A stretch of DNA of 64,000 nucleotides, from the NCBI GenBank assembly GCA_021780075.1, contig JAJXZL010000036.1, positions 1 through 64,000 of the forward strand, in the 5' to 3' direction. The notes beneath the pieces are model-generated. The model was not told the DNA's origin. It saw only the letters and a program-made list of their open reading frames with translations, and ran no database searches. This DNA is from Acidobacteriota bacterium (GTDB lineage Bacteria > Acidobacteriota > Terriglobia > Terriglobales > Acidobacteriaceae). Shown one piece after another: positions 3,069 to 64,000 of this stretch (position 1 is its first letter; every line of letters begins with the position of its first letter). The position numbers were made by a program, and so were the translations under genes.

Positions 3069-5480
3069 ATGACAGCAATTCGATATTCCTGGCAATCCTG
3101 GCTACTTTGCGCGGTTCTTGCAAAGTGCATCCTGATCGCACCTGCATTTGCGCAAAACCCGCCCGCTTCCTCCAGCGGGCAAGGCAGCGCCACATCGATC
3201 GATGCAACGCTGGACCCGATCATGGAAAAGGCGGTCGCAGACGGAAATATCCCGGGAGGTGTCCTTTTAATCGGACACAACGGAAAGGTCATTTATCGCA
3301 AGGCATTTGGATGGCGTTCGCTTGAGCCAGTGCGGGAACGGATGACCGTTGACACAGAATTCGACCTCGCTTCGCTCACCAAGTGTGTCGCGACGGCGCC
3401 CTCGGTTATGAAGCTGATTCAGCAAGGTCGCGTCCGGTTGAACGATCCGGTATCTGCCTACCTTCCTGAGTTCGCGCAGAACGGCAAGAAGGACATCACC
3501 GTTCGTGAACTGCTCACGCATTACTCCGGCTTGGCTCCCGACCTTGATTTGAAAGCTCCATGGACAGGACGGGAAACAGCGTTTGAGATGGCCATGCACG
3601 AGACGCCCGCTTATCCTCCCGGATCGCGCTTCGTCTATAGCGACATCAACTTTGAGACGCTGGGCTTCCTGGTGGAAAAGGTGACTGGAGTCTCGCTGAG
3701 CGAGTACGCCAGCCGGAACATCTTTGTTCCGCTGGGCATGACCAACACCCGCTTTCTTCCGCCGGAAGAATGGACGCCGCGTACGGCGCCGACGCAATAT
3801 GACGAGCAGGGCAAGATGCTGCGCGGCGTGGTGCATGACCCCACCGCACGGCGGATGGGCGGCGTTGCGGGCCATGCCGGCGTGTTTTCGACGGCTGACG
3901 ATCTCGCCAAATTCGCTCAGGATATGCTGAGCGGCTTCACGGTCCTGAGCGAGTTAAGCGTGGAGAAGATGTCCACTCCGCAGCAGCCGGCCAACGCGGC
4001 CAGCCTGCGCGGACTCGGATGGGATATTGACTCGCCTTTCGCCAGCAACCGCGGCGAACTGCTTCCTGTTGGCTCATTTGGCCACAGTGGCTTTACTGGA
4101 ACCTCACTATGGATTGACCCGGTTACTGACACCTACATTATTCTCCTCACCAATGCCGTGCATCCTCGCGGCGGAAAATCGGCGGTGTCTCTGCGTTCCC
4201 GGGTTGCAACTGCCGTGGTTCAGTCCCTGGCACTAACCGTTTCCGAGAAAGAGAAGCTGCGGCTTTCCCGCATCACCGGATATAACGAATCCCTGATGGC
4301 CGCGCGACGATTCGATACGCGTAACGGAGAAGTAAAGCTAGGCATCGATGTCCTGGAATCGGACGCCTTCCGCGAGCTTCATGCTGATGCAGGACATGTT
4401 GTCAGGGTTGGACTGGTCACCAACCAGACCGGTGTCGATTCACACGGCCGGCGAACCATCGATGTTTTGGCACATGCGCCGGGCATTCAGCTCGCCGCAA
4501 TCTTCAGCCCTGAGCACGGCATTGCCGGCACGATGGATACAACTAAGATTGATAACTCCAAAGACCCTGCAACCGGTGTTCCCATCTATAGCGCGTATGG
4601 GGACAGCGACGCCAGGCGCCGCCCTGCAGCCGCGGCTCTCGCCGGTCTGGATGTGATCCTCTATGACATTCAGGACGTCGGTGTTCGCTTTTATACCTAC
4701 GAAAGCACGATGGGATATTTTCTTGAAGCTGCAGCCCATGCGGGCAAGCAGATGATCGTGCTCGACCGCCCCAACCCGCTTGGCGGCGCATTCGTTCAAG
4801 GCCCTGTTGCCGATCCCGGAAGGAGTTCGTTCACCAGCTACTGGCAGACACCCGTCCGGCACGGCATGACCATCGGAGAACTGGCCAAAATGTTCAATAC
4901 GGAGCGGGCGATTGGCGCGAAGTTGACGGTCATTCCCATGGAAGGCTGGATGCGGGGCGACTGGTTCGACTCCACCGGCGAGTTATGGATCAATCCATCG
5001 CCTAACATGCGCAATCTTAATGAAGCGATCCTGTATCCCGGCATCGGGCTTCTTGAAACCACCAATCTATCCGTCGGCAGGGGAACGGACACTCCCTTTG
5101 AAGTGGTTGGCGCGCCCTGGATTGCTCCAGAAGAGCTTGCCAGATATCTCAATGCCCGCGCGCTCGACGGGGTGCGATTCATCCCGATCTCGTTTACCCC
5201 GAACAGCGCAGTGTTTGCCCATCAGCAGTGTGGCGGCGTGAACATTGAGGTAACAGATCGCGATGCACTGGATGCTCCGGAACTGGGCGTGGAGATCGCG
5301 GCGGCCTTGCAGAAACTCTATCCCGGCCAGTACAAGATTGCCGGCCTCGATAGGCTCATGGTCAGCAAAACAAGCCTTGACGCAATTGCCGCTGGTCAGG
5401 ATCCGCGGCGCGTTGCCGAGCAATGGCGCAGCGGCATTGAGCAATTTCAGACCATGCGAACCAGGTACCTTCTTTACTAG
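3069..5480 (+). CDS. Secreted fusion: AmiE-like serine hydrolase + NamZ (DUF1343) exo-N-acetylmuramidase
   Basis: This 803-residue protein carries a signal peptide (cleavage near APAFA-Q, residues 26-28) and two complete enzymes. Residues about 45-390 are a beta-lactamase-fold serine hydrolase with S102-L-T-K105, Y190-S-D and H339-S-G in order. Residues about 424-803 are DUF1343, the family of exo-beta-N-acetylmuramidase NamZ (GH171), with VGLVTNQTGVD, FSPEHG, YDIQDVGVRFYTYESTM and LDRPNPLGG. In Bacillus subtilis the separate genes amiE (serine hydrolase-type MurNAc-L-Ala amidase) and namZ lie together and recover muropeptides. The fusion therefore suggests one periplasmic protein that both strips the peptide and releases MurNAc. 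The frame is open far upstream into the symporter gene; ATG 3069 is chosen because GAGGG precedes it and a signal peptide begins there. Confidence 0.88.
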   Translation: MTAIRYSWQSWLLCAVLAKCILIAPAFAQNPPASSSGQGSATSIDATLDPIMEKAVADGNIPGGVLLIGHNGKVIYRKAFGWRSLEPVRERMTVDTEFDLASLTKCVATAPSVMKLIQQGRVRLNDPVSAYLPEFAQNGKKDITVRELLTHYSGLAPDLDLKAPWTGRETAFEMAMHETPAYPPGSRFVYSDINFETLGFLVEKVTGVSLSEYASRNIFVPLGMTNTRFLPPEEWTPRTAPTQYDEQGKMLRGVVHDPTARRMGGVAGHAGVFSTADDLAKFAQDMLSGFTVLSELSVEKMSTPQQPANAASLRGLGWDIDSPFASNRGELLPVGSFGHSGFTGTSLWIDPVTDTYIILLTNAVHPRGGKSAVSLRSRVATAVVQSLALTVSEKEKLRLSRITGYNESLMAARRFDTRNGEVKLGIDVLESDAFRELHADAGHVVRVGLVTNQTGVDSHGRRTIDVLAHAPGIQLAAIFSPEHGIAGTMDTTKIDNSKDPATGVPIYSAYGDSDARRRPAAAALAGLDVILYDIQDVGVRFYTYESTMGYFLEAAAHAGKQMIVLDRPNPLGGAFVQGPVADPGRSSFTSYWQTPVRHGMTIGELAKMFNTERAIGAKLTVIPMEGWMRGDWFDSTGELWINPSPNMRNLNEAILYPGIGLLETTNLSVGRGTDTPFEVVGAPWIAPEELARYLNARALDGVRFIPISFTPNSAVFAHQQCGGVNIEVTDRDALDAPELGVEIAAALQKLYPGQYKIAGLDRLMVSKTSLDAIAAGQDPRRVAEQWRSGIEQFQTMRTRYLLY

Positions 5481-6862: not shown

Positions 6863-8317
6863 ATGCTGAGTTGCGACACTCTTATACGAAATGCGAGCGT
6901 TTTGGACGGCAGCGGCGCTCCACCGGAAGTCCTGGATATTGCGATTCGCGACGACCGCATTTGCGGCGTTGGCTTCTCTCTTGCGTGCAGTGCTGCCTCG
7001 GTAGTGGAGGCTGAGGGCCTTGCACTCGCGCCGGGCTTCATCGATGTCCACACCCACGACGACACCAGCGTGATTCGCTCGCCGGAGATGCTTGCAAAGT
7101 TGTCCCAGGGAGTTTCCACGGTAATCGTGGGCAACTGCGGCATCAGCGCGGCGCCCGTGCAACTGAAAGGCGAGCCGCCCGATCCGATGAATCTGCTTGG
7201 CGGCGCGGAGGTTTTCCGCTATCCAACATTTTCCGCATATGTCGCGGCGCTCCGCGAGGCACGGCCTGGCGTGAATGTGGGCGCGCTGGTGGGACATACC
7301 GCGCTGCGCAATAACCACATGGACCGCCTCGACCGCATCGCAACGGATGCGGAGATTGCGGCAATGCGCACGCAATTGGGCGAGGCGCTCGACGGCGGTG
7401 CGCTCGGTCTCAGCTCCGGCCTTGCCTATGCTTCGGCCCGTGCCGCGTCTACTGACGAGGTAAAGGCGCTGGCGCAGCCACTGGCATCAGCGGGCGCCGT
7501 CTACGTCACACACATGCGCACGGAGGCAAACGCAATCCTCGACGCGATGGATGAGGCCTTTGCAATCGGCCGCGCGTGCCATGTGCCGGTGATTTTATCT
7601 CACTTGAAATGCGCGGGCATCGCCAACTGGGGCCGCAGCGAAGAAGTATTGCACGCACTGGAAGCAGCGCGCGCCGCGCAGCCCACCGGCTGCGATTGCT
7701 ATCCCTATGCGGCCGGATCGAGCACGCTCGATTTACAACAGGTGGACGAGCGCGTTCAAATCACGATTACCTGGAGCGTGCCGCATCCTGAGCTCGCGGG
7801 GCAGTCGCTGGCGAGCATTGCCCAGGCGTGGGGCGTGCCGCATCTCGACGCGGCGCGGCGGTTGCAGCCTGCGGGAGCGATCTATCACAGCATCTCTGAA
7901 GCGGACATGCGCCGCATACTGGCACACCCGGCAACGATGATCGGGTCCGACGGCCTGCCCAATGATCCACGCCCCCATCCTCGCCTGTGGGGAACATTCC
8001 CCCGCGTCCTGGGCCGCTATTGCCGCGAGGAGGAGTTGATCACGCTGCCTGACGCCGTTCATAAAATGACCGGGATGCCGGCGCAGAGATTTGGACTTGC
8101 GGAGCGTGGGCTGATCCGCATGGGATATTTTGCGGATCTGGTGCTCTTTGATCCGGCGAAGATCATCGATACCGCAACCTTTACCGATCCCATCCGTGCG
8201 GCGGAAGGCATCGAGAGTGTTTGGGTGAACGGAACTCTTGCTTACACGACTGCAGGGGCCACAGGGAATCGCGCCGGACGCTTCCTGCAGCGCGCGAGGA
8301 CACCCTGGATTCAATAG
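6863..8317 (+). CDS. N-acyl-D-amino-acid deacylase (D-aminoacylase family)
   Basis: A 484-residue amidohydrolase of the D-aminoacylase/DAN family, which hydrolyses N-acyl-D-amino acids to a free D-amino acid and a carboxylic acid. Visible landmarks are the metal-binding H63-T-H65 in GFIDVHTHDDTS, the conserved cysteine in VGNCGIS, LSSGLAYASA, VTHMRTE, ILSHLKCAG, and MIGSDGLPND near the C-terminal end of the barrel, followed by FADLVLFDP. The ATG at 6863 is where homology begins; no good Shine-Dalgarno sequence is seen, though the frame continues upstream. It heads a probable operon with the RidA, GntP-family and lactonase-like genes. Confidence 0.9.
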   Translation: MLSCDTLIRNASVLDGSGAPPEVLDIAIRDDRICGVGFSLACSAASVVEAEGLALAPGFIDVHTHDDTSVIRSPEMLAKLSQGVSTVIVGNCGISAAPVQLKGEPPDPMNLLGGAEVFRYPTFSAYVAALREARPGVNVGALVGHTALRNNHMDRLDRIATDAEIAAMRTQLGEALDGGALGLSSGLAYASARAASTDEVKALAQPLASAGAVYVTHMRTEANAILDAMDEAFAIGRACHVPVILSHLKCAGIANWGRSEEVLHALEAARAAQPTGCDCYPYAAGSSTLDLQQVDERVQITITWSVPHPELAGQSLASIAQAWGVPHLDAARRLQPAGAIYHSISEADMRRILAHPATMIGSDGLPNDPRPHPRLWGTFPRVLGRYCREEELITLPDAVHKMTGMPAQRFGLAERGLIRMGYFADLVLFDPAKIIDTATFTDPIRAAEGIESVWVNGTLAYTTAGATGNRAGRFLQRARTPWIQ

Positions 8318-8340
8318 CTGAAAGGACGGAAGGAAAGCAG

Positions 8341-8733
8341 ATGGGCATCAAGCGATATGGAGTGGAAGGCGGCAAGGGCACGGGCGGCCAGCATCTGCCC
8401 TTTGCGCGTGCGGTAGAAGCCAACGGATGGCTCTATGTGTCGGGGCAGGTTCCTATGGTGAATGGCGAGGTCGTCGCGGGCAACATCGTTTCCCAGTCCC
8501 GGCAGGCCATTCAGAATCTTCTAGCAATCCTCAGTGAGGCAGGATACGGCCCCGAGCATGTGGTACGTTGCGGCGTATGGCTCGATGACCCGCGCGATTT
8601 CCCTTCCTTCAATGCGGTCTTCAAAGAATACTTCGGCGAACATCCGCCCGCGCGCGCATGTGTCGTATCGAGCATGGTTGTAGATTGCAAGGTCGAGATC
8701 GAGTGCGTGGCCTACAAAGCTTCCGGCGCTTGA
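8341..8733 (+). CDS. ridA: RidA family protein (imine/enamine deaminase)
   Basis: The 130-residue product is a standard-length RidA (YjgF/YER057c/UK114) protein. The catalytic arginine lies in PPARACVVSSM, and WLYVSGQVPM and VEIECVAYK are family landmarks. RidA hydrolyses reactive 2-aminoacrylate and related imines released by PLP enzymes such as serine/threonine dehydratases. That fits its place beside the D-serine/D-threonine-type PLP enzyme and D-aminoacylase. GGAAGGAAA lies just upstream of the ATG, 23 bp after the D-aminoacylase stop, so co-transcription is likely. Archetypal RidA trimers are cytosolic. Confidence 0.9.
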   Translation: MGIKRYGVEGGKGTGGQHLPFARAVEANGWLYVSGQVPMVNGEVVAGNIVSQSRQAIQNLLAILSEAGYGPEHVVRCGVWLDDPRDFPSFNAVFKEYFGEHPPARACVVSSMVVDCKVEIECVAYKASGA

Positions 8734-8804
8734 GCCTTTCGGTCTTCACTGCCGCATGAGCAGCAATTCGACTTGATGAGCACATCAACGCAGATAGCGA
8801 GCCT

Positions 8805-10154
8805 ATGATTGATCCTCACAGTATTTTTCTGCTGGCCTCGGCGCTGGCCGCAGTGATTGGGCTGATTCTGCTGATCGCTGTCTTTAAGCTGAATCCCTTC
8901 ATCGCCCTTTTTCTGGCCTCCCTGTCGCTGGCCGTCGTTGCCGGAATGCCGCTCACCACCGTGATTCATTCCTTTGAGGCCGGCGTGGGAGGCACACTCG
9001 GACACATTGCAATCATTGTGGCGCTCGGCACAATACTCGGCAAAATGATGGCGGAGTCGGGCGGCGCCGACCAGATTGCACAGACACTGATACGAGTCTT
9101 CGGGAAGAAGCGAATTCCATGGGCGATGATGGTCATCGGGATCGTGGTGGGCTTGCCGGCTTTCTTTGAGGTTGGCTTCGTGCTCCTGATTCCGATTGCG
9201 TTTACGGTTGCGCGGCGCACCCGGACTTCCCTTATCCTGGTGGCGTTACCCATGGTGGCCGGGCTTTCAGTGGTTCACGGACTGGTGCCTCCGCATCCAG
9301 CCGCGCTGCTGGCAGTAACGATCTACAAGGCCGACATTGGCCGCACAATCTTCTACGCCTTGCTCATCGGTATTCCCACAGCGGCAATCGCAGGCCCTGT
9401 TTATGCGAAATTTATTGCGCCGCACGTTGAGCTTTCTCTCGAAGGTCCCATGGCCGCCGACTTTGTTGATCACGGCGCTGAGAGCAGCCTGCCGGGCTTC
9501 GGGCTAACCTTCTTCACGATTCTGCTGCCGGTCGCATTGATGTTGATTGGCAGTTGGGCAAATGCAGTGTCTGCGCCCAATAGCGGACTGAACCACGCGC
9601 TGCACCTGATGGGCAACGACGATATGGCTCTGCTCATCGGTGTACTTGTCAGCTTTTTCACCTTGGGCAAGCTGAGGGGATTCACGCGCGAAACCATCCT
9701 GCGCTTCAGCAACGAGTGCCTTGCGCCCACAGCAACCATCACCATTCTGGTGGGCGCGGGCGGCGGCTTTGGAAGGGTGCTGCAGGACAGCGGCGTCTCC
9801 CAGGCAATCATCGGGATCGCCCTGCAAAGCCACATCCCGCTGCTGCTGCTGGCCTGGCTGCTGGCAGCCCTGATGCGCCTGGCGACGGGTTCGTCAACCG
9901 TGGCAATGACGACGGCCGCGGGTATCGTGGCTCCCATTGCGCTGCATAGCGCGGGCGTGCACCCTGAGTTGCTGGCCATTGCCACCGGCGCGGGTTCGCT
10001 CATCTTTTCGCATGTGAATGACGGCGGGTTCTGGCTCGTAAAGGAGTACCTCAACATGAGCGTTACGGAGACGATCAAGACCTGGTCGATCTGCGAAACG
10101 ATCATTTCAGTCACCGCCCTGCTGCTTACCCTTGCCGTGTCGGTTGTCGCCTGA
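8805..10154 (+). CDS. GntP family permease (gluconate or D-serine/DsdX-type)
   Basis: A 449-residue membrane protein of the GntP family, recognisable by GGTLGHIAIIVALGTILGKMMAESGGADQIA and GIVVGLPAFFEVGFVLLIPI near the N-terminus and FSHVNDGGFWLVKEY near the C-terminus. The family imports gluconate and related sugar acids with protons, and one branch (DsdX) imports D-serine. The neighbours (D-aminoacylase, RidA, D-serine-dehydratase-like enzyme) favour a D-hydroxy-amino acid. The downstream lactonase-like gene would equally fit a sugar acid. It lies 71 bp after ridA in the same direction. Confidence 0.9.
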   Translation: MIDPHSIFLLASALAAVIGLILLIAVFKLNPFIALFLASLSLAVVAGMPLTTVIHSFEAGVGGTLGHIAIIVALGTILGKMMAESGGADQIAQTLIRVFGKKRIPWAMMVIGIVVGLPAFFEVGFVLLIPIAFTVARRTRTSLILVALPMVAGLSVVHGLVPPHPAALLAVTIYKADIGRTIFYALLIGIPTAAIAGPVYAKFIAPHVELSLEGPMAADFVDHGAESSLPGFGLTFFTILLPVALMLIGSWANAVSAPNSGLNHALHLMGNDDMALLIGVLVSFFTLGKLRGFTRETILRFSNECLAPTATITILVGAGGGFGRVLQDSGVSQAIIGIALQSHIPLLLLAWLLAALMRLATGSSTVAMTTAAGIVAPIALHSAGVHPELLAIATGAGSLIFSHVNDGGFWLVKEYLNMSVTETIKTWSICETIISVTALLLTLAVSVVA

Positions 10155-61469: not shown

Positions 61470-61742
61470 ATGGCGCACATGGTTTTTTGCGTTCGCAACA
61501 AGCAGGAGATGGAGGGCCTCGACGAGCCGCCCTTCGACTCGGAATTAGGCCAGAAGGTCTACAAAAATGTCTCCAAGGCAGCGTGGGCCGAGTGGGTCAA
61601 CCATCAGAAGATGTTGCTCAACGAGTACCGCCTCCAGCCCTGGACCCCACAGGCGCAGCAGTTCCTGGCCGAACAGATGGAGATGTTCTTCTTCGGCGAG
61701 GGCTCGGCCCTGCCCAAGGAGTTCGTGCCGCCGTCGCAGTAA
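61470..61742 (+). CDS. yggX: Probable Fe(2+)-trafficking protein (YggX family)
   Basis: A 90-residue YggX protein: MAHMVFCVRNKQEMEGLDEPPFDSELGQKVYKNVSKAAWAEWVNHQKMLLNEYRLQPWTPQAQQFLAEQMEMFFFGEG. The conserved cysteine is C7. The family protects iron-sulfur clusters from oxidative damage and is thought to help traffic ferrous iron in the cytoplasm. GGGAG lies nine bases before the ATG. It is upstream of the tRNA-Pro gene in the same direction, with 144 bp between. Confidence 0.95.
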   Translation: MAHMVFCVRNKQEMEGLDEPPFDSELGQKVYKNVSKAAWAEWVNHQKMLLNEYRLQPWTPQAQQFLAEQMEMFFFGEGSALPKEFVPPSQ

Positions 61743-61886
61743 GCCGATGCGCGTCGCCTGCGTTGCGCAGACCCGCGGCAGTCACCCGGAAACAACCATG
61801 CGTCTGCACGCACACGCAACCCGCGCCGCTGGTGTAAACTGATTCAGACCCCGGAGGCCGGCTCACCCGAGCCGGCTCCATTGTGT

Positions 61887-61963
61887 CGGGACGTGGCTCA
61901 GCCTGGTAGAGCACTCGCTTGGGGTGCGAGGGGTCGGCAGTTCAAATCTGCCCGTCCCGACCA
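61887..61963 (+). tRNA. tRNA-Pro (anticodon GGG)
   Basis: A complete cloverleaf of 77 bases including CCA: acceptor CGGGACG/CGTCCCG, D-arm GCTC/GAGC, anticodon arm CTCGC/GCGAG around TTGGGGT (anticodon GGG), T-arm GGCAG/CTGCC around TTCAAAT. Discriminator A and CCA are encoded. The CCA starts the first unit of a 160-bp tandem array. Confidence 0.95.
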
Positions 61964-62502
61964 TTTAATCTCCACTGAAATCCTTCACCCAGTAAAAGTC
62001 TTCGTGGCCGACCCACGAAGCACCCCATCCGTGGAATCCGCCAGAGCGGATTCCCGAGTAAGGCCTGCGAGGGGTGCGAGGCAAAGCCGAACCTCGGCAG
62101 TTCAAATCTGCCCGTCCCGACCATTTAATCTCCACTGAAATCCTTCACCCAGTAAAAGTCTTCGTGGCCGATCCACGAAGCACCCCAATCGTGGAATCTG
62201 CCAAAGCGGATTCCCGAGTAAGGCCTGCGAGGGGCGCGAGGCAAAGCCGAACCTCGGCAGTTCAAATCTGCCCGTCCCGACCATTTAATCTCCACTGAAA
62301 TCTTTCATCTAGTAAAAATCTTCGTGGCCGACCCACGAAGCACCCCAATCGTGGAATCCGCCAGAGCGGATTCCCGAGTAAGGCCTGCGAGGGGTGCGAG
62401 GCAAAGCCGAGCATCGGCAGTTCAAATCTGCCCGTCCCGACCATTTAATCTCCACTGAAATCCTTCACCCAGTAAAAGTCTTCGTGGCCGACCCGCGAAG
62501 CC
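61961..62502 (+). repeat. 160-bp tandem repeat array containing copies of the tRNA-Pro 3' half
   Basis: Units begin at 61961, 62121, 62281 and 62441, exactly 160 bases apart; the fourth is partial and ends near 62502. Each begins CCATTTAATCTCCACTGAAA and contains two stable hairpins: CTTCGTGG/CCACGAAG, and GGAATCCG/CGGATTCC. It then repeats the tRNA anticodon-arm 3' strand (GGGGTGCGAG), a 10-base insertion, and the T-arm plus acceptor 3' strand. Copies of that tRNA-like end lie at 62071-62123, 62231-62283 and 62391-62443. The units differ by a few substitutions, some of which keep the stems paired. No 5' tRNA half is repeated. Confidence 0.9.
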
Positions 62503-62562
62503 CCCGCCCAGTATCCGATCATCCTTGCCTCTAGGCTCAAGCGAGTCGTTTCGCCAAAGGAA

Positions 62563-62590
62563 AAGGGCCAGCCAAATTCGACTGGCCCTT
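62563..62590 (-). terminator. Rho-independent terminator of the cysteine-rich protein gene
   Basis: Minus-strand hairpin with arms AAGGGCCAG and CTGGCCCTT and a ten-base loop, followed by TTTTCC. It lies about 70 bp after the minus-strand stop at 62659. Confidence 0.75.
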
Positions 62591-62658
62591 GTGAATATGT
62601 GCCACACAGAGAGAGCTGAGAGTGGCAGCCCGCCACCGGGCGAAGCCACTTCACCCCT

Positions 62659-64000
62659 CTATTGCGTAACCACCTCGACGCACTCGCTCGCGGTGAGCGT
62701 CCCAACAGTCTGGGTGACTGCTTCGTTCTCGTCACCCACCATGGTCGCAGACACTGTGTTGATGTGCTGGATACCATTGCAGCTCACGTCGCAGTCCCTG
62801 TCGCTCGAGCAAGTATTGCCCACATTGCTCGACTTGCCGACACTACACGTCCCAGTGGTGCACTTTCCCGCGGTCGAAACGATGGCCGTAGGTGCTGCGC
62901 AGAACTGTGCGTCAAACGTGCACTTGTAGTCACTGCCTCCCACGGTCAACGTCGTTGGCAAACCCCCGCAGGTCGTCGCGAGAATTAGAGGGCCAGGAGT
63001 GGGTGCGATGTTCCCAAATGCACTGTCGGTTAATGCCGAAAGAGTCAGATTCTCATCCGCCTTACTCGTGTTTGCGACGTCCACGTTGTATCTCAGGGTC
63101 GCACACACCTCCTGGTTGCTCCCGAAGCCCTTGGTTATCGTCGCCGTGCTCGGCGCATCACTCGAAGTGACCAGAACGCTGTTTGACTGGGTTGGGCCAA
63201 ATAGCGTGCCGCCAGAACCATGCCCCTTTACGGTCAGGATATTCGTCACATTTGCATTCTCGCCTTGGGTTACGATGAAATCACACGATCCAGTACCAGC
63301 CGCCGCAATCGTCATCCCTGGAGAACATGTATTCATGCCAGTCACGGTCCCGGCGGTTCCCGCTGCGCAAGCGGACGCGTACCCGGGGGCAGTGAAAACA
63401 TTGCCGTAAGCGGTATCGCAAATCTGGTCGATGAAGAGGCTGCCGAAGTTCGACGTGTTCGTGATCGCCACGTGATAGGTAACCTCGCCACCCTCCGGAC
63501 CTGCGTCACACGACACCTTTTTTTCTCCTGTGGTAAGAGTTGTATTGCAACTTTTCGCCACCGTCGCTGATGGTTGTTGAACCTCAATCGGCACAGTGAA
63601 CGTACTGTCGCAATTACACTTTGACGGAGCCCCTGGTATAGCTGCCGCCACCCACGGGTAAGAAGGCGAGGGGCTGACGCAAGACAGCGTTCCGCCGGGC
63701 TGCTGCCAGCTCGTGCAGTTCGGCAGGGTCAGTTTGTTGGTGCCCGCTGCCGCTTTGCACAGAACATTGTCGACCTCCACCGTAACGACCTGGTCATTGT
63801 TGGCGGTCGTGATATCGCCGCAGTTGTCCGGCGGCGGATCATTCTCTTCATATTGGGAAGTTCCCAGCTGTACCGTAGCACCCGTTGTGGTCGAGTTATG
63901 GAGGGGCGCAATGATGTTGTCTGCGCAGCTCCCTGTCAACGCGTCCCCCTGGCCGCCGGTCGCGAAATACATACCGATGTTTTCCCGGGCGGAGGCGGTT
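62659..64000 (-). CDS. Cysteine-rich secreted protein with DUF11-like repeats (partial, N-terminus beyond window)
   Basis: The last 447 codons of a larger gene; the frame is open to base 64000, with RENIGMYFATGGQG still in a domain-like context, so the apparent ATG 63972 is not the start. The sequence is beta-rich and extracellular in style: repeated DUF11-like units (EVTYHVAITNTSNFGSLFIDQICDTAYGN; LRYNVDVANTSKADENLTLSALTDSAFGN) with many paired cysteines (CSSDRDCDVSCNG, CTTGTCSVGKSS). No catalytic motif is seen. It is probably a surface adhesin-like protein, followed by a terminator and then the tRNA repeat array. Confidence 0.7.
   Translation of the reverse strand, partial: TASARENIGMYFATGGQGDALTGSCADNIIAPLHNSTTTGATVQLGTSQYEENDPPPDNCGDITTANNDQVVTVEVDNVLCKAAAGTNKLTLPNCTSWQQPGGTLSCVSPSPSYPWVAAAIPGAPSKCNCDSTFTVPIEVQQPSATVAKSCNTTLTTGEKKVSCDAGPEGGEVTYHVAITNTSNFGSLFIDQICDTAYGNVFTAPGYASACAAGTAGTVTGMNTCSPGMTIAAAGTGSCDFIVTQGENANVTNILTVKGHGSGGTLFGPTQSNSVLVTSSDAPSTATITKGFGSNQEVCATLRYNVDVANTSKADENLTLSALTDSAFGNIAPTPGPLILATTCGGLPTTLTVGGSDYKCTFDAQFCAAPTAIVSTAGKCTTGTCSVGKSSNVGNTCSSDRDCDVSCNGIQHINTVSATMVGDENEAVTQTVGTLTASECVEVVTQ

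Follow-up and report, generated by a model that had tools for sequence, protein, structure and literature searches.

The array of 160-bp repeats that follows the tRNA-Pro(GGG) gene on this Acidobacteriaceae contig is probably a group of gene-restoring insertion units at the 3' end of the tRNA gene, multiplied locally, and one case of a kind of unit that occurs across the Acidobacteriaceae. The position of such units, their copies, their locally matching tails, their junctions with tRNA loops, the many tRNA genes that serve as targets and, for a second type of unit, one well-resolved empty site were read directly from the sequences. That the units move, by means of an enzyme supplied in trans, we infer. 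To our knowledge, and as far as literature searches went, a family-wide class of such units with many tRNA targets is new: neither a description of tail-copying units of this sort nor a report of insertion with a target-copied tail for bacterial mobile DNA was found in the literature searched, which lay mostly outside subscription journals. An oddity behind one tRNA gene thereby becomes a testable class of short units, which spread to many tRNA genes and leave them intact.

The tandem array behind tRNA-Pro(GGG)

The window, the whole stretch of 64,000 nucleotides that was analysed, contains tRNA-Pro(GGG) as the only tRNA gene recognised by ARAGORN, and units of exactly 160 bases lie directly 3' of its CCA (Table 1). 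TRF gave a period of 160, 3.6 copies, 94% matches and no indels. A BLAST search of the organism's own genome returned five matches at E <= 0.001, all of them within the array and the tRNA, and at this threshold no unit was found elsewhere in the 3.88-Mb assembly. The three full units and one partial unit described in an earlier reading of the letters alone (the sequence-only reading) were confirmed by both programs; the partial unit measures 62 bases. The last 30 bases of tRNA-Pro recur exactly at the end of every full unit, and each unit carries two perfect hairpins and a 10-base insertion between the copy of the anticodon arm and that of the T-arm; that reading had named two strong hairpins, the 3' half of the tRNA and a 10-base insertion.

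Table 1 Features of the tRNA-Pro(GGG) locus, in positions of the window
Feature	Position	Strand	Source or remark
tRNA-Pro(GGG), intact, CCA encoded	61887..61963	+	ARAGORN; Rfam 61887-61960
Unit 1: spacer, hairpin, antisense segment, hairpin, anticodon-arm copy with insertion, tRNA tail copy	61964..62123	+	
Unit 2	62124..62283	+	96% identity to unit 1 (own-genome BLAST), 6 differences
Unit 3	62284..62443	+	95% identity to unit 1 (own-genome BLAST), 8 differences
Partial fourth unit, ending within the antisense segment	62444..62505	+	97% identity to unit 1 (own-genome BLAST), 2 differences
Unit 1, first hairpin, CTTCGTGG/CCACGAAG	62000..62020	+	
Unit 1, antisense segment, complementary to the tRNA from anticodon loop to T-stem	62007..62030	+	Kept in most relatives read
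Unit 1, second hairpin, GGAATCCGC/GCGGATTCC	62033..62054	+	Hairpin with different sequence in many relatives
Unit 1, copy of the tRNA anticodon-loop/arm 3' strand (GGGGTGCGAGG), followed by a small inserted hairpin	62071..62081	+	
Exact copy of tRNA bases 61934-61963 (T-arm to CCA)	62094..62123; also 62254-62283, 62414-62443	+	

No promoter-like sites were found in 61700-62720. On its minus strand this interval has five hairpins that resemble terminators, and in each unit the first hairpin is one of them. Downstream of the array lies a long repetitive ORF (window 62659-63972, minus strand), and a strong terminator-like hairpin (62563-62590) stands 3' of this ORF on the ORF's own, minus strand.

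Units behind tRNA genes in related genomes

The closest relatives of a neighbouring iron-trafficking-like gene lie in the Acidobacteriaceae; among the best 80 of 220, nearly all are labelled as Acidobacteria or as members of that group, and one as Formivibrio. Counts given here for the genus refer to group g1, which comprises 79 genomes including the window's own, and those for the family to group f1. The window's kind of unit (type 1) was found in 21 of the 79 genus genomes, again with the window's own included, as 25 matches above 50 bits to model R1; the weaker matches to this model that were inspected (46 bits and less) were tRNA-Pro itself. Most of the genomes with a unit carry a single copy. 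ARAGORN recognised tRNA-Pro in 17 of the 21 type-1 loci and no tRNA in the other four (L015, L363, L369 and L371). Of these four, L015 and the locus of genome G045 by eye have an apparent island end ahead of the unit, and L363 has an apparent assembly gap. Units of type 1 with the sequence of a tRNA other than tRNA-Pro were not found in the genus search.

The 21 type-1 units that were read usually have the order spacer, antisense segment, hairpin, anticodon-arm copy, inserted hairpin and tRNA tail. The sequence of the inner hairpin varies between species, and the antisense segment is the complement of the tRNA from anticodon loop to T-stem. The unit of L019 is without this segment, and was left out of the type-1 alignment (A2) together with the units whose tail is interrupted. 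The distance from tail to tail is 146 to 183, or as much as 204 in units with an interrupted tail copy. A cut-off unit is all that at least four relatives possess (L018, L030, L081 and L085). By eye, the flank directly 3' of tRNA-Pro in L061 is the one that stands 3' of the unit tail in L007 and L013; this would follow from insertion of a unit or from its clean loss in L061, since clean excision would yield the same pattern. In four loci (L013, L023, L028 and L059) the T-loop of the tail copy is interrupted by a hairpin repeat of the GGGGTCCCC...GGGG type, and the real tRNA is spared.

Several broader searches were set aside. A short pattern of the antisense segment was unspecific across 80 genus genomes, its backward control matching many genomes too, and an initial search of relatives, with matches in 87 of 149 genomes, found mostly the tRNA itself. 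In a plasmid search with the window array, the 20 of 95 matching records that were listed had short matches confined to the tRNA end of the query. The type-1 antisense motif in one phage contig lies inside a coding frame with no unit, and was taken as a chance match.

In the window's own genome the tRNA model matched 37 places and 36 tRNA genes were read; a repeat of the gene's own tail was found in the stretch behind two of them, Pro(GGG) and Ala(CGC). The unit behind tRNA-Ala(CGC) is a different short palindromic one (type 2) that ends in an exact copy of the tRNA-Ala tail; its core is formed by two palindromes ending in CGGCTCAA and is joined directly to GTTCGATCCCGCTCAGCTCCACCA, the tail of tRNA-Ala. 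At E <= 1e-5 a type-2 core of 65 bases was found in 143 of the 398 genomes of the family, spread over 48 of 79 genera. Behind tRNA-Ala, -Met, -Lys, -Cys and -Val alike, the copy is that of the same tRNA.

Of 182 BLAST rows, 16 lacked their 3' end and about 20 duplicated a context already present; with both groups dropped, 146 distinct type-2 3' junctions remained, read from 30 loci and 80 regions of the longer family-search list and from the loci of an earlier search; with tandem units and related species among them, they are not independent of each other. At 66 of these junctions the core passes directly into a copy of a nearby tRNA, and 25 tRNA types are represented, although the share linked to tRNA is inflated among the best matches by a query taken from a tRNA-linked copy ending in GTTC. 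The junction lies at the T-loop in sense orientation in 58 of the 146, at the anticodon loop in four in sense and three in antisense orientation, and elsewhere in the tRNA, in antisense, in one. Eighty match none of the tRNAs recognised in the stretch that was fetched; a GTTC...CCA tail is nevertheless present in 12 of these. The first four letters of the target (n = 146) were most often GTTC (70), followed by CTTC (15) and CTTG (11), and 68 of the 70 GTTC junctions are placed at the G-C pair that closes a 7-base loop.

Among the 12 unmatched junctions with a tRNA-like tail are type-2 cores of L191 and L198 that stand in tRNA clusters, a dense run of 18 tRNA genes in the case of L198, and whose tail comes from a tRNA other than the upstream one; recombination between units is possibly the origin of these mismatched tails. 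In L200 (about 483-560) and L309 (about 765, reverse strand) the core by eye abuts the apparent start of a 5S rRNA gene, and in L243, L294, L295 and L299 it is followed by similar, CTTGCTGAAAAGATTCGCAGCCTCTACACTGG-like sequence that is not tRNA. The type-2 core was not found in plasmids, and in viral contigs neither a type-2 pattern nor the one spacer searched was matched exactly.

Sequence that follows the type-2 core on its 3' side was found again on its 5' side, scoring 15 or higher, in 82 of 144 instances (the 146 less two that lie too close to a contig end for the repeat test). In a shuffle control, with the best of 20 shuffles taken per instance, a score of 15 was reached in 0 of 144. 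A few of the 82 repeats are tandem hairpin arrays and not tRNA copies (e.g. L299). The 59 distinct tail pairs comprise 32 that are identical, 17 with one change, nine with two and one with three; the required 20 matching bases out of 24 fix the lower end of these counts. Fifty pairs carried no tandem flag, with the tandem cases L190 and L245 still among them. In these 50, identity after the CCA was 0.68 at the first base (control 0.32) and came down to the control level at about +10; the exact match extends 0-3 bases past the CCA in 39 pairs and further in 11, one of these being an unflagged tandem case.

The spacer between CCA and core has a median length of 26 bases, with an additional group at 4-11. 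In a comparison of all spacers with each other they differed from place to place, and among the 15 best pairs likeness was confined to orthologous, same-array or core-containing pairs. The clearest view of an insertion is given by the tRNA-Leu(CAG) gene, which has no unit behind it in L390 and three in L383. In L390 the CCA is followed by AATGGC, and in L383 the three units are followed by AATGGT; the flank after the last tail of L383 aligns to L390 throughout, with a score of 325 compared with 50.5 for the sequence after the tRNA. In this pair the copy stops one base beyond the CCA. Behind the single tRNA of L383 the units have two unrelated spacers, which suggests repeated arrivals. The agreement between L394 and L388 (empty) and L398 (one unit) is less clean because the near flank has diverged; on these diverged flanks the spacer after the CCA is likewise not native flank. 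From these comparisons it follows that the spacer is part of the inserted piece and that the copy ends at the CCA or a few bases beyond. A fixed target duplication of about 50 bases was rejected on the same grounds, the spacer after the CCA not being native flank in L390/L383. The pair L402/L407 looked favourable but was not relied on, as the stretch common to both could be a widespread low-complexity motif, and at tRNA-Ala the empty sites had diverged too far to be informative.

At tRNA-Gly the copies in L268 and L274 are antisense and extend from the anticodon loop as far as the tRNA's 5' end. In L316 an antisense copy ends at the apparent start codon of a protein gene, as judged from frames read by eye, and a weaker copy in L292 (repeat score 13) likewise ends at an apparent start codon; both again look like restoration up to a gene end.

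Proposed gene-restoring insertion and its alternatives

In the explanation we prefer, a 160-bp unit would enter the 3' end of tRNA-Pro, and the tRNA would stay intact because the inserted piece carries (or receives) a copy of the tRNA from one loop to the 3' end. One unit would arrive first, and recombination among near-identical units and their 30-base tails would then give three and a half copies, of which the partial last one may be a decayed or cut unit. A unit would in general consist of a palindromic core of ~60-130 bases that is joined at the 5' edge of a 7-base tRNA loop, mostly the T-loop and sometimes the anticodon loop, the rest of that tRNA's sequence coming after it. For the window's own type of unit, mobility is suggested by the sister type 2 and by the comparison with L061.

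The crossover in a 7-base loop, the restored gene and the unrelated sequence after the CCA have the geometry of tyrosine-integrase attachment sites, and therefore a trans-acting recombinase of tyrosine-recombinase-like geometry is our first guess within the insertion reading, a tentative one that may somewhat more easily prove wrong than right. An enzyme linked to the units was not found. Y1 transposases were considered as partners and rejected on 30 loci, since none of these Y1-transposase loci carries the full-length type-2 core (31 genomes searched; the best partial match covered 22 of 65 bases). The class of units calls for an enzyme that joins DNA at tRNA loops.

The match between nearly every tail and its neighbouring tRNA cannot be explained by a tail that the unit carries with it, which would need one lineage per tRNA or a swap of tails. 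Either the units form many lineages, or each insertion takes its tail copy from the target. That gene-less mobile units enter tRNA loops and copy their tail from the target, as DNA or RNA, so that a single family of units could occupy dozens of tRNA genes, and that the tyrT repeats of E. coli stem from the same kind of event, is a possible but doubtful extension of the insertion reading.

A tail copied from RNA is the basis of the first rival explanation, in which the tail would be copied from the tRNA molecule, joined to the core and returned to the same gene by a reverse transcriptase (RT). It would explain the local tails, the sense copies that end at the CCA, the antisense copies that end at the mature 5' end (those at tRNA-Gly run from the anticodon loop to just this point) and the unrelated spacer; the 39 of 50 pairs in which the exact match stops 0-3 bases past the CCA, and the copy at the empty site with its one additional base, are consistent with it. 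RT genes (PF00078) are present in 44 of the 79 genus genomes, the window's genome included, but were not found in the other 35, and none was linked to the units. Nor were they found in eight of the 11 RT-searched genomes with a type-2 match at E <= 1e-17 (G009, G019, G023, G029, G040, G053, G056 and G068), most of which are incomplete assemblies. Furthermore, the copy in L316, and more weakly that in L292, ends at an apparent start codon, which is no known RNA end. We consider RNA-templated insertion unlikely.

A structured RNA, co-transcribed with the tRNA and kept for a function in which the antisense segment would pair with the copied anticodon arm or with the tRNA itself, is quite unlikely to account for the array. 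Unit 1 folds better than all of 200 dinucleotide shuffles (z -3.4), the whole array gave a z of -4.9 (20 shuffles), and the predicted fold pairs GCACCCC with the GGGGTGC of the copy. Most units read from the genus have kept both the antisense segment and the arm copy, and the analogous repeat of E. coli is annotated as a small RNA, RttR. Palindromic DNA elements, however, fold well too. RNAalifold found only 11 consensus pairs over 17 units, and the central hairpin beat its shuffles (p <= 0.05) in eight of 20 units, three of which are the window's. Moreover, 58 of the 79 genus genomes gave no match above 50 bits, and the cut-off units of at least four relatives have to be set beside them. The sequence-only reading had held that the changes in unit 2 keep its stems paired and hint at constraint on an RNA structure. 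This was borne out at position 76, where C-G becomes U-G, but not at position 112, where a change from T to C breaks the GCACCCC/GGGGUGC helix. The fold of unit 1 favours such constraint, and the few consensus pairs, the inconstant hairpin and the cut-off units weaken the case; a conserved RNA function of the units is weakly supported.

A further proposal from the sequence alone was that the array may be a stack of attachment-site scars; integrase islands would have come to tRNA-Pro and left again. The part of that proposal that concerns insertion at the tRNA 3' end was upheld by the single-unit relatives, the type-2 empty and filled pair and the local tails, whereas scars of integrase islands were not supported and are very improbable. 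Islands of relatives do seem to use the same tRNA-Pro. In L105 a tyrosine integrase (Pfam Phage_integrase, E 1.5e-25; 3071-4165, minus strand) adjoins tRNA-Pro(GGG) at 2888-2964, and L086 and L101 have island-like far copies. These far copies, however, comprise the tRNA from the anticodon loop without the inserted bases of the unit, and the units share one conserved inner structure, unlike the variable ends of islands. In L015 and L023 the units by eye stand behind an apparent island end and do not form one. The window had been noted to hold no integrase, and this is true of its whole 210,716-base contig, on which none of the genome's 20 Pfam integrase matches is located. Finally, one type-2 core that is common to 25 tRNA types and nearly always has the right tail does not fit the layout of integrase islands. 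Integrase ends similar to that of L105 were seen by eye in L016, L043, L057 and L113. A phage contig (L413) carries a copy of the tRNA-Pro tail (26 of 29 bases, about 9061-9089, read on the minus strand as 4927) just behind an ORF that we read as integrase-like (8009-9055, plus strand), and this copy is likely the attachment site of the phage.

Ordinary tandem duplication of the tRNA tail and its flank with no insertion event, although duplication is most likely how the array grew locally (95-96% identity, same spacer), is most improbable as an account of the whole, since at the unit-free sites read the inner hairpin sequence occurs neither within the tRNA nor in its flank, and one core recurs behind unrelated tRNAs.

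Comparison with known systems

According to PMC4383910, genes for tRNA that are split by islands in the anticodon loop or T-loop are restored by a copy, and the displaced fragment lies downstream; the crossovers known there are in the anticodon loop, the T-loop and the T/acceptor junction, and a minority of islands leave a 5' piece. The window array resembles this layout in its intact tRNA with a downstream fragment in the same orientation. A crossover in a loop is likewise seen, in 65 of the 66 type-2 tRNA junctions and in the window, where the copy starts in the anticodon loop. The units differ from islands in their length of about 90-200 bases (160 bp in the window) and in having no integrase gene inside. 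In the same source, the Islander program is described as rejecting candidates below 2 kb or without an integrase, and such units would therefore go unlisted. The class would be a source of genomic tRNA fragments that an island finder discards by design. Fragments of tRNA from islands, and one in a CRISPR spacer, are treated in PMC9897764.

REP sequences with their RAYT transposases are a second system for comparison. PMC3733652 describes short palindromic non-autonomous repeats, with related transposases reported from Acidobacteria. The units studied here are likewise short, palindromic and repeated, but differ in the direct repeat of the target and in their junction with a tRNA loop, and the 30 loci noted above gave no link of the units to a Y1 transposase.

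The closest known case is that of the distal repeats of tyrT/tyrV in E. coli K-12 (rttR RNA, tpr), for which the present class offers a possible origin. A scan of the window with Rfam at the gathering score gave the tRNA only and no match to the rtT/rttR family; the likeness is one of layout. In K-12, tandem units of 178 bp in 3.1 copies stand behind tRNA-Tyr as the 160-bp units stand behind tRNA-Pro, and one further copy lies behind tyrT. Each K-12 unit ends in DNA that by eye is palindromic, joined to a copy of the last 19 bases of tRNA-Tyr, from T-loop to CCA. The copy in the window begins further up, in the anticodon arm, and the K-12 stretch was looked at for tRNA-Tyr alone, compared with the 25 tRNA types of type 2. 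Common to E. coli and the window are tandem units behind a tRNA gene, each of which ends in the 3' tail of that same tRNA.
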